Shown here: in pieces, positions 10,537-12,910 of the stretch
Numbering within the stretch: position 1 is the first letter of the stretch
Layout: every line of letters begins with the position of its first letter
Origin: a virus
DNA: 26,039 nt
Strand: one strand, 5' to 3'
IMG/VR virus record: IMGVR_UViG_3300025789_000140
Span: 1-26,039 of that record
Made by a program: the position numbers and the translations under genes
The notes under the pieces: generated by a model
Databases searched by the model: none
What the model saw: only the letters and a program-made list of their open reading frames with translations
Told to the model about the DNA's origin: nothing

Positions 10537-11112
10537 TTAACTATACTCATATGGTGTACTAGGATGTCCATAATCTACAGGAATGTCATTCTTAAAGTTA
10601 TCATAATCCTGATAGTAACCTTCGTTTGGTTTAAGTTCCCGCCAATCATCGTATTTGATTTTAGCCAGCAATACTTCGTTCTTGCTTAACAAATCACAGA
10701 CAATAAACGAACTTGAACAAGCACCGCGAATAGTTTTGATAGGTGCGTGTTTATATTCGTTAGCCAACAGAGCTTTGTGCATAGCACTACCATATGGTGC
10801 CATAATACGTACAATGCCTAGTTTTTGATTGCGTAAGCGAAACTTAGCAGTTAGTGTGAGATTTGATATTGTAGCTTCGTTTGCGTCATTGATTGTTAGC
10901 AAACACTCTTTGACTTTGATGCTACCTTTTGTGTGACTATTATCAGGCGTTTCCTTAGTGCTCCAAGGTAGCTGACAATCCACATGATTGACATACAATG
11001 TTTCCCCATGAAATTTTAAGACCCACATAGGAATGGTCTCGTCTTCTAAATGCTTTTTGTTAAAATGGAAAACTACATTCTTACAAGCATATTCAATCTA
11101 TTGTTTTGACAT
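10537..11112 (-). CDS. Conserved T4-like phage protein with in-frame amber at codon 5
   Basis: The best start is the ATG at 11112, coupled to the previous gene by TAATG, with AAAGGAGA as ribosome site. It reads M-S-K-Q-TAG (amber at 11100-11098), then continues without another stop for 186 codons: IEYACKNVVFHFNKKHLEDE, TIPMWVLKFHG, PWSTKETPDNSHTKGSIK and so on. The piece between the TAG and the next ATG (11028) looks like real protein. The ATG at 11028 (163 residues, starting MWVLKFHG) has no ribosome site. Full expression therefore seems to need read-through. A tRNA with anticodon CTA lies 260 bases upstream on the same strand. The family looks like a conserved small protein of T4-like aquatic phages; function unknown. 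Confidence 0.75.
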
Positions 11113-11360
11113 TATACTATCTCCTTTAGTTTTTGTTTGATGTCTTTGTGTTTTACTATTATAAAGTTTTTTATTTCTTTATCAATCTTAATGGGTAAGT
11201 CTAAATGAACTACCACTTCAGGATTTACACCATCGATACAACGATCGTTGCCCACAGTACCGATAAATGGAGTTTTATTCCAAATACCAAATACCCTGTC
11301 TCCGATTGTATATTTACTCTTGTATCCTGTACGTTCGAAATAATCTGTTAGACTGCCCAT
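11112..11360 (-). CDS. Small conserved phage protein, SH3-like barrel
   Basis: 82 residues; ATG with AAAGGAATTAAT upstream. The sequence YTIGDRVFGIWNKTPFIGTV, then VVVHLDLPIKID and IIVKHKDIKQKL is laid out like a small SH3/KOW-type beta barrel and matches a type conserved in marine T4-like phages. It starts 12 bases after the tRNA 3' end, so the two are almost certainly co-transcribed and the tRNA must be cut out of the message. Its TAA overlaps the ATG of the amber-containing gene. Function unknown. Confidence 0.7.
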   Translation of the reverse strand: MGSLTDYFERTGYKSKYTIGDRVFGIWNKTPFIGTVGNDRCIDGVNPEVVVHLDLPIKIDKEIKNFIIVKHKDIKQKLKEIV

Positions 11361-11371
11361 ATTAATTCCTT

Positions 11372-11446
11372 TGGTGCGCTAGACAGGAATCGAACCTGCT
11401 GTCTCGGACTTTAGAGATCCTTGCTATACCAGTTAGCCTCTAGCGC
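11372..11446 (-). tRNA. Amber suppressor tRNA, anticodon CTA
   Basis: A 75-nt cloverleaf with CCA encoded. The acceptor stem GCGCTAG/CTAGCGC is a perfect 7 bp; D arm GCTA-ACTGGTA-TAGC; T arm GCAGG-TTCGATT-CCTGT; discriminator A73. The anticodon arm is AGGAT-CTCTAAA-GTCCG (four pairs, with a T-G closing pair and an A-G mismatch at the outer end). U33 is present and the anticodon is C34-T35-A36, which pairs with UAG. Even if the loop is drawn larger the central triplet stays CTA. Base 8 is A instead of U. Which amino acid it carries cannot be read with confidence: the G1-C72 pair and A73 do not fit bacterial tRNA-Gln well, and some features recall tRNA-Arg. Confidence 0.88.
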
Positions 11447-11530: not shown

Positions 11531-11797
11531 TTACTTCTTTGTACCTGAGTTAACAAAGCTGTACATCTTTTCTGCCGCTTCCATAATCTTTTCTAGACCT
11601 GGAAATTCTGGCATTGCTACTGAGCTAACAAGTTGTCCTGTCTTTTCATCTTTCTTAGCTGATACTTCCCAGCCATGTAGCTTAAACTTGTATTCATCCA
11701 TAACAGCATCTTTAGCCAATGCTAAGACGTCAGCACGGATCTCATAACCATTCTTGTTGAATTTAACTTCTGGTGCTTTTGGAGTTTCAAAGGACAT
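11531..11797 (-). CDS. Conserved small phage protein, unknown
   Basis: 88 residues; AAAGGAG site within the end of the upstream gene, start in a TAATG overlap. Sequence features: VKFNKNGYEIRADVLALAKD, HGWEVSAKKDEKTGQLVSSV, MPEFPGLEKIMEAAEKMYSF. Mixed alpha/beta, soluble, no membrane segment. The GYEIRADVLALAK...GQ...FPGLEKI layout looks like a protein that accompanies the phasin-like gene in marine T4-like phages. Followed by a strong terminator. Function unknown. Confidence 0.7.
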   Translation of the reverse strand: MSFETPKAPEVKFNKNGYEIRADVLALAKDAVMDEYKFKLHGWEVSAKKDEKTGQLVSSVAMPEFPGLEKIMEAAEKMYSFVNSGTKK

Positions 11798-12003
11798 TAT
11801 TTTGCTCCTTTGTAAACTGAATCTTTGTAGCTAGAAACTAGAGTTTGAGCAAGTGTTAGAGTTGTATCAACCCATCCTTGATAAAACTTAGTTTGTGCTT
11901 CGATTAATTTGATTAGTTCTTTTTGAACTAGTTCATCTTTAACAAATGTGTTAACGACTACTTTTTTGCCGCTTTGTACGGCGTCAATTGCTTGATTAAA
12001 CAT
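11797..12003 (-). CDS. Phasin-like helical protein
   Basis: 68 residues from the ATG at 12003, chosen because AAGGAG lies 6 bases upstream and the mapped promoter places the transcript start near 12054, excluding the longer start. Two amphipathic helices (MFNQAIDAVQSGKKVVVNTF; LIEAQTKFYQGWVDTTLTLA) resemble phasins, small proteins that coat polyhydroxyalkanoate granules or act as soluble helical scaffolds. The likeness is one of pattern, not a firm family call. Its stop overlaps the next ATG (TAATG). It could bind host granules or lipids, or simply be a small helical regulator. Confidence 0.6.
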   Translation of the reverse strand: MFNQAIDAVQSGKKVVVNTFVKDELVQKELIKLIEAQTKFYQGWVDTTLTLAQTLVSSYKDSVYKGAK

Positions 12004-12055
12004 ATTTTTCTCCTTGTGTGTGTTTAAGTGTGTAACAGCATTATTGCTGTCCATG

Positions 12056-12063
12056 TATTTATT
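12056..12063 (-). promoter_or_regulatory. Late promoter box AATAAATA on minus strand
   Basis: AATAAATA directly follows the TATAAT of the sigma70 promoter on the minus strand, so the phasin-like operon may also be transcribed late. Confidence 0.4.
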
Positions 12064-12089
12064 ATAACTTATAAAATACTAAATGTAAA
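12061..12089 (-). promoter_or_regulatory. Sigma70-type promoter of the phasin-like operon
   Basis: On the minus strand: TTTACA (12089-12084), 17-base spacer, TATAAT (12066-12061). It spans the end of the acetyltransferase gene, with an expected start near 12054. Confidence 0.7.
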
Positions 12090-12627
12090 GTGGTCTGGTA
12101 ATACGCTTGCTAAAATAGTCTACCACAGCCATATTAGCACTAGTAGCTTCTTCTACATAGGTATACACGTCTGCCTGTGGTAATTCTATAGTAGCAAGTG
12201 TCTCGCCCATCTCATTTTCCATTGTAATACCGTACTTAGAACATAGGTGTTTGATACGGTTATTAGTACTTAGGCATACCATACATCCTTTAAGAACGTT
12301 ATGCGTACGGCAATACTGGATACAACGTTTTATTAGCCTGTTGCCCATGCCCTGTCCTTGGTAGTCTTTGAGCACACTAAAAGCCAACTCCATCTCGCCT
12401 TCTAGGCTAATATGGCCCATAGCAACGAATTCTAACTGTTCATTTTCTATAGCAAATAGAATATGTTTATCAGGGTTGGCTTCAAACTTGTCACAAAGTG
12501 TGTCAATGATGTAGTCGCTAACTGTATAGCCAAACCGTAATACCTTAGATTCTGCGTCAAGAGATTTAAGGTGCGTACGATATTTGGCATACTCGTGTGG
12601 AAGTACACGACGAACTGTAGTAAGCAT
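12079..12627 (-). CDS. GNAT-family N-acetyltransferase ending in TAG
   Basis: 182 residues. The acetyl-CoA site of the GNAT fold is clear: MELAFSVLKDYQGQGMGNRL (residues 79-98), with the Q-G-Q-G-M-G loop after the beta-4 strand LAFSV. It is preceded by FAIENEQLEFVAMGHISLEG and followed by an RCIQYCRTHN helix. The substrate is unknown; single-domain GNATs acetylate amines on small molecules, ribosomal proteins or peptides. It is the only gene here to end in TAG. If that codon is read, the frame continues through 8 sense codons into the phasin-like gene. Ribosome site weak; follows the 30-residue gene by 3 bases. Confidence 0.85.
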   Translation of the reverse strand: MLTTVRRVLPHEYAKYRTHLKSLDAESKVLRFGYTVSDYIIDTLCDKFEANPDKHILFAIENEQLEFVAMGHISLEGEMELAFSVLKDYQGQGMGNRLIKRCIQYCRTHNVLKGCMVCLSTNNRIKHLCSKYGITMENEMGETLATIELPQADVYTYVEEATSANMAVVDYFSKRITRPLYI

Positions 12628-12630
12628 TGG

Positions 12631-12723
12631 TTAAATCCAGTGTTGGCCTTTGAGTATAGCTTCTGCACGAGCTTGCTGTACTGCTTTAACGATTTCGTAA
12701 AAGTCTTTAAAAAATTGTTTCAT
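12631..12723 (-). CDS. Short helical protein, 30 residues
   Basis: Encodes MKQFFKDFYEIVKAVQQARA followed by EAILKGQHWI, with AAGGGGG as ribosome site and 1-7 base gaps to its neighbours on both sides. A single amphipathic, basic helix. Similar very short proteins (DUF1127/DUF3563-like) occur near small regulators; function unknown. Missed by length cut-offs. Confidence 0.6.
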   Translation of the reverse strand: MKQFFKDFYEIVKAVQQARAEAILKGQHWI

Positions 12724-12724
12724 T

Positions 12725-12910
12725 TTAAAGCCCCCTTGCCCAATAGAATGTACTTCTATTAGTTTCGTATTCTTTGGTTAGACGATCAACGTCTGCGGCA
12801 TTTTGTGGATTGTTTTTGACAATGTAGTACTCTAGCCCACTACCGTAAGTTTGTGGTTTACTGAATGAATTTTCTAGGCTTTTGACCCAGTTTGATATGG
12901 TTTTTAACAT
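12725..12910 (-). CDS. Small DUF3563-like protein
   Basis: 61 residues; AAAGGA ribosome site. The pattern GLEYYIVKNNPQNAADVDRL followed by TKEYE recalls DUF3563-type proteins (L-E-x-Y-L...D-x-A-D-L-E-R-R). First gene of the leftward block, 70 bases downstream of a sigma70-type promoter, as expected for an early gene. Function unknown; might act on the host soon after infection. Confidence 0.6.
   Translation of the reverse strand: MLKTISNWVKSLENSFSKPQTYGSGLEYYIVKNNPQNAADVDRLTKEYETNRSTFYWARGL

Follow-up and report, generated by a model that had tools for sequence, protein, structure and literature searches.

The locus described here raises the question of why a phage in which TAG still terminates ordinary genes would carry its own amber suppressor tRNA beside a gene that is interrupted by an in-frame TAG. 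It lies on IMG/VR virus record IMGVR_UViG_3300025789_000140 (positions 1 to 26 039, hereafter the window), a 26-kb fragment that also contains phage ribonucleotide reductase, exonuclease and structural genes. The interrupted gene encodes a protein of the family designated FHFN. Its sequence and those of its relatives indicate that the arrangement is very probably a naturally occurring stop-codon gate, specific to one gene, which the phage suppressor tRNA opens and which controls a small translation-related operon. The parts of this gate, their conservation, their linkage and the matching of codon to anticodon are set out below.

Structure of the locus

The minus strand of the window carries first a CUA tRNA (11372-11446), then a gene of 82 amino acids (aa) with no assigned function (11112-11360) and after it the TAG-interrupted gene (11112-10537). 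An earlier note on this DNA had reported the tRNA from its letters; the tRNA was called by ARAGORN, which gave the anticodon CTA and no other, and, with 55 bits, by the Rfam tRNA model. Its acceptor stem is GCGCUAG/CUAGCGC with A73 and an encoded CCA, whilst the anticodon loop reads CUCUAAA; in the anticodon stem, 31-39 is a U-G pair and 27-43 an A-G mismatch. The note had placed the tRNA two genes upstream; strand and direction stand, but only the 82-aa gene intervenes in the 0.3 kb before the TAG gene.

The start of the gated gene was likewise as described: the stop of the 82-aa gene overlaps its ATG in a TAATG coupling, a Shine-Dalgarno-like AAAGGAG is present at 11121-11127 (-), and the gene reads AAAGGAGATAGTATA ATG TCA AAA CAA TAG ATT GAA..., with the TAG as codon 5 (11098-11100, -) followed by 186 open codons and a terminal TAA. 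The later ATG at 11028, which the note had considered unsuited as a start, falls inside a conserved core (PMW), and homologues do not begin at the methionine of MWVLKFHG. The same TAG and the same tRNA were present in an independent assembly, L003, whose protein is 99 % identical, and the TAG is therefore not a sequencing error.

Conservation of the in-frame TAG

Homologues were identified in viral contigs by peptide patterns that did not include the TAG codon. A first scan with the read-through protein returned 39 relatives, all 39 with TAG at the same place, and two further scans brought the total to 122 distinct proteins. The gate was present in 117 of these, 1-12 codons (usually 2-4) past the start codon and 6-12 codons before the FHFN motif, and none of the 117 displayed TAA, TGA or a sense codon at the site. 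The proposal that the TAG arose from CAG by point mutation did not survive this comparison, as CAG was found in no relative and TAG was invariant across proteins down to ~49 % identity. With divergence of this degree, with short and long forms and with genomes of different sizes, one recent event is untenable as an explanation.

The ratio of non-synonymous to synonymous polymorphism (pN/pS) was 0.28 over the nine codons that follow the TAG and 0.22 over the 60 beyond those, against 0.75 for the two codons that precede the TAG. By this measure purifying selection reaches up to the TAG, and the codons ahead of it appear nearly free. The base following the gate TAG was A in 168 of 174 gates, compared with 35 of 135 TAG terminators. 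An A following TAG is a context that favours amber suppression, and a conserved isoleucine at the next codon also explains it. Three cultured phages carry a gate (Phosso, RHph_I1_18 and Atu_ph07). In Rhizobium phage RHph_I1_18 the short FHFN gene has TAG as codon 6, with a CUA tRNA directly behind.

Suppressor tRNAs linked to the gated genes

Of the 117 gated loci, 103 contain a CTA tRNA, on the strand of the gated gene in all 103 and upstream of it in 97, at a median distance of 682 nt (under ~100 nt in 19). Several CUA tRNAs, such as those of L034, L036 and L040, were overlooked by ARAGORN and are visible by eye. The CUA tRNAs share G1-C72, C2-G71, G3-C70, A73 and a YUCUAAA loop, and little else. 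The 31-39 pair was absent in 69 of the 103, in contrast to 15 of 542 other tRNAs of the same loci. Stop-codon readthrough is reportedly raised by short anticodon stems with an open pair at 27-43 (PMC13092985); as the open pair here is 31-39 instead, the link is only suggestive. Similarity to other tRNAs gave an ambiguous identity, and glutamine appears an unlikely residue for insertion because tRNA-Gln in these loci mostly begins with TGG and has G73. In L040 (9735-9811) and L041 (1539-1615), the gated FHFN gene, of the short form, is preceded by a suppressor-like tRNA whose anticodon loop has 8 nt (GCCCTAAC).

The Phosso-type jumbo clade differs in that its CUA tRNAs have G73 in place of A73. 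In all nine of its phages (L042, L215-L219, L221, L222 and L226) a class II aminoacyl-tRNA-synthetase-like protein of ~250 aa is encoded within ~2 kb of the CUA tRNA, as at 379-1538 in L042. It was absent from eight other genomes searched, and might be a dedicated charging enzyme of this tRNA.

Ungated relatives and movement of the gate to PTH2

The FHFN gene starts normally in five relatives (L127, L147, L173, L178 and L184), and in L127, L173 and L178 an ATG occupies exactly the former TAG position. Four of these five genes belong to an operon headed by a peptidyl-tRNA hydrolase (PTH2) gene or a weaker PTH2-like gene, which itself has a TAG two to four codons past its start and is followed by genes that overlap or abut. 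The gate therefore moves within the operon. The PTH2 proteins of the L169 phage and Atu_ph07 matched PF01981 with 68-75 bits, above the cut-off, whilst the L147-type protein scored 15 bits, below it. A search for such genes identified 25 viral loci, of which ~20 have TAG past the start, one TGA, one TAA and two clearly normal starts; in L223, read by eye, a TAG is present near the start and the frame is broken. In Agrobacterium phage Atu_ph07 the PTH2 gate is TGA and the sole stop-reading tRNA of the phage has anticodon UCA, whereas in Phosso and IMG/VR relatives TAG is paired with a CUA tRNA; codon and anticodon have therefore changed together.

Of the 122 distinct loci, 29 have a gene for transfer-messenger RNA (tmRNA) with a degradation-type tag close to the FHFN gene, in every case on its strand (e.g. 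L064 10543-10941, L081 10539-10918, L072 9442-9852 and L009 3888-4311). A further structured RNA was seen in L037, where GOLLD RNA (Rfam RF02032, 182 bits; 12268-12726) lies 2 kb downstream of the gated gene and overlaps a tRNA-Arg gene.

Use of stop codons elsewhere in the genomes

All loci were scanned for a start codon, an early stop and a long open frame. One family dominated, FHFN, with TAG in 160 of 160 cases, and the other plausible recurrent families were those of PTH2 and a GIY-YIG-like open reading frame (ORF) inserted at the FHFN start. In whole records the plausible gated gene was FHFN only (G006) or PTH2 only (Atu_ph07). The same stops end ordinary genes: TAG terminates 18 of 215 ORFs in G006 and 138 of 2082 in the first set of loci, and TGA terminates 292 of 741 in Atu_ph07. 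Among the window's 31 ORFs with 80 aa or more, one ends in TAG, in line with the rarity noted earlier. Of the features of recoding phages, then, the CUA tRNA was found, whilst neither numerous genes with in-frame TAG nor avoidance of TAG was observed. The locus would work like a suppressor-tRNA switch, but it does not belong with the genome-recoding phages, as these last two defining features were looked for and not found. The earlier idea that an amber tRNA of the phage and a single in-frame TAG form a local switch, with no recoding across the genome, is strongly supported by the conservation, linkage and codon-anticodon matching described above.

Two other arrangements of stops were observed. 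In the window (11797-12627), a GNAT acetyltransferase gene ends in TAG (12079) in frame with the next gene, and suppression would fuse both. The GIY-YIG-like ORF follows an apparent copy of the FHFN start (MS*IEYAC) with TAG in L039 (9316), L153 (5422), L159 (4475), L187 (3124) and L189 (5332), and with TAA in L185, L192, L195 and L198; a homing endonuclease gene seems to have been inserted at the gate.

Proposed mechanism and alternative explanations

From these features we infer that the stop is read through with insertion of an amino acid, and to what end. In cis, a UAG stands 1-12 codons past a good start of the FHFN or PTH2 gene or operon; in trans, a dedicated CUA tRNA is encoded by the phage, usually upstream on the same strand and probably often within one transcript with the gated gene. 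In the absence of charged suppressor tRNA, translation would end with the release of a peptide only a few residues long, and neither the protein nor the coupled downstream genes would be expressed. With it, a fraction of ribosomes would insert an amino acid at the UAG (or UGA) and complete the protein. We tentatively favour, as the purpose, a coupling of expression to the working of the suppressor tRNA or to readthrough of UAG, with the gate as a sensor of the state of translation termination that would make rescue factors as stop codons come to be read through, because PTH2 and the linked tmRNA genes point to translation rescue. The main alternative, a simple timer that delays expression, is only slightly less favoured. 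The earlier note had proposed such timing, with full-length protein appearing only once the tRNA has accumulated; this is possible, and the linkage to PTH2 and tmRNA means that a sensor of translation state fits too. A still broader suggestion, which we consider less likely than not, is a natural regulatory class of stop-codon gates with dedicated phage suppressor tRNAs, in which rescue factors (PTH2, FHFN, linked tmRNA) would be made in proportion to readthrough, with the jumbo clade contributing an orthogonal trio of tRNA, synthetase and gated gene.

Several observations weigh against a suppressor-controlled gate. Among the 117 gated loci, 14 yielded no CTA tRNA, and 10 of these have at least 3 kb of sequence upstream; in two of the 14 (L034 and L040) such a tRNA, overlooked by the programs, is visible by eye. 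L173 carries a CTA tRNA even though its FHFN gene is ungated, and a search for a different gated gene there found none. The PTH2-like gene of L213 (~4985) has TAA past its start, and no UUA tRNA was found in that 33-kb fragment. Closer backup stops were not seen behind TAG-ended genes, which makes strong general suppression doubtful; ordinary stops are probably suppressed only to a modest degree. Homologue counts are uncorrected for shared ancestry, and the mini-ORF could have a role of its own.

Such a role is the basis of the alternative that survives best, although we consider it improbable: a minigene regulator, in which an upstream ATG-xxx-TAG frame causes peptidyl-tRNA drop-off in the manner of lambda bar, the protein is made by reinitiation and the tRNA is incidental. 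Exactly one codon separates ATG from TAG in 103 of 174 gates, one gated family is a peptidyl-tRNA hydrolase, and minigenes are already known to produce peptidyl-tRNA (PMC3856088). Past the TAG, however, there is no conserved start codon, and coding constraint begins with the very next codon; leader length ranges over 1-12 codons, the CTA tRNA is linked on the same strand, and stop type agrees with tRNA type.

We regard as more improbable still that the TAG encodes a required special residue, similar to pyrrolysine, with no regulatory gate. The invariance of the TAG and the synthetase-like protein beside the CUA tRNA of the Phosso clade would fit, yet relatives have a start codon or Leu in its place, the site lies within a variable N-terminus, and two unrelated families are gated in differing sequence contexts. 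The synthetase-like protein, which is different from PylRS, occurs only in the Phosso clade and not in the eight other genomes, with the qualifications that no search was aimed at PylRS and that the window is a 26-kb fragment.

Translation from a non-AUG codon directly past the TAG is also very improbable. AUU is a rare start codon, known from infC, and ATT adjoins the TAG in 138 of 174 gates. Other gates have ATC, AAA, ACT, AAT, CAA, GTT, CAC and others at this codon, a variability that speaks against a start there; the upstream ATG and Shine-Dalgarno sequence are kept, and in L023 the ATG stands nine codons ahead of the TAG. Finally, a gene broken by recent mutation or assembly error could explain a single TAG in one genome, but this reading is already refuted by the 117 of 122 distinct homologues that have the TAG under purifying selection and by the agreement of independent assemblies and cultured phages.

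Domains of the FHFN protein

The FHFN domain of the window protein (~80 aa; 10858-11097, -) gave a confident all-beta structure model and stands alone in short homologues. The long form adds a C-terminal domain (10537-10857, -, including the TAA stop at 10537-10539) with a ferredoxin-like model; it was considered as a relative of PTH2 and rejected, with an hhalign probability of 0.1 %. The FHFN domain had no match in Pfam or the PDB, and a PDB fold search with the whole protein was likewise empty. The best match in the viral library was an uncharacterized phage protein of 160 aa (47 % identical), and no FHFN homologues were found in bacterial genome contigs, plasmids or the defence library.

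Comparison with known systems

The code 15 crAss-like and Lak phages resemble the present group in that a phage CUA tRNA serves in-frame TAG codons in a standard-code host, with a proposed role in timing. Unlike in those phages, a single gene or operon is interrupted here, near its start, and TAG remains an ordinary terminator elsewhere. Many other standard-code phages carry a stop-reading tRNA for which a target has never been identified, and they too show no genome recoding: the authors of XacN1 (PMC5852040) and Summit (PMC9022506) state that they found no target, and the description of Atu_ph07 noted a UCA tRNA and named no target (PMC6102473). The difference is that a target is now proposed, which for Atu_ph07, itself a member of the present group, is PTH2. 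Neither the first 320 kb of XacN1 nor DLP_5, which is closely related to Summit, yielded convincing start-proximal gates. For the present group, the gate offers an answer to the use of a non-recoding suppressor tRNA, and names a conserved candidate target in a large set of phages that includes cultured Agrobacterium, Sinorhizobium and Rhizobium phages and more than 100 distinct environmental phages. Gene callers overlook such genes: the FHFN gene of RHph_I1_18 is unannotated and PTH2 is annotated in truncated form.

Release factor 2 is expressed through a programmed frameshift at an early in-frame UGA, and there too an early stop ties expression to termination efficiency, by frameshifting and with no dedicated tRNA. 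In pyrrolysine and selenocysteine decoding, a dedicated tRNA reads a stop codon in a few genes, as here, but the residue inserted is special, whereas the one at the gate appears dispensable. An engineered suppressor-tRNA loop, in which tRNA and amber-bearing gene are both required (PMC7969014), has the same coherent feed-forward design, and differs in being synthetic where the present one is natural and conserved. If readthrough is confirmed, these loci would show in nature that a dedicated suppressor tRNA can control a gene, something that to our knowledge is otherwise known only from synthetic circuits or genome-wide recoding.
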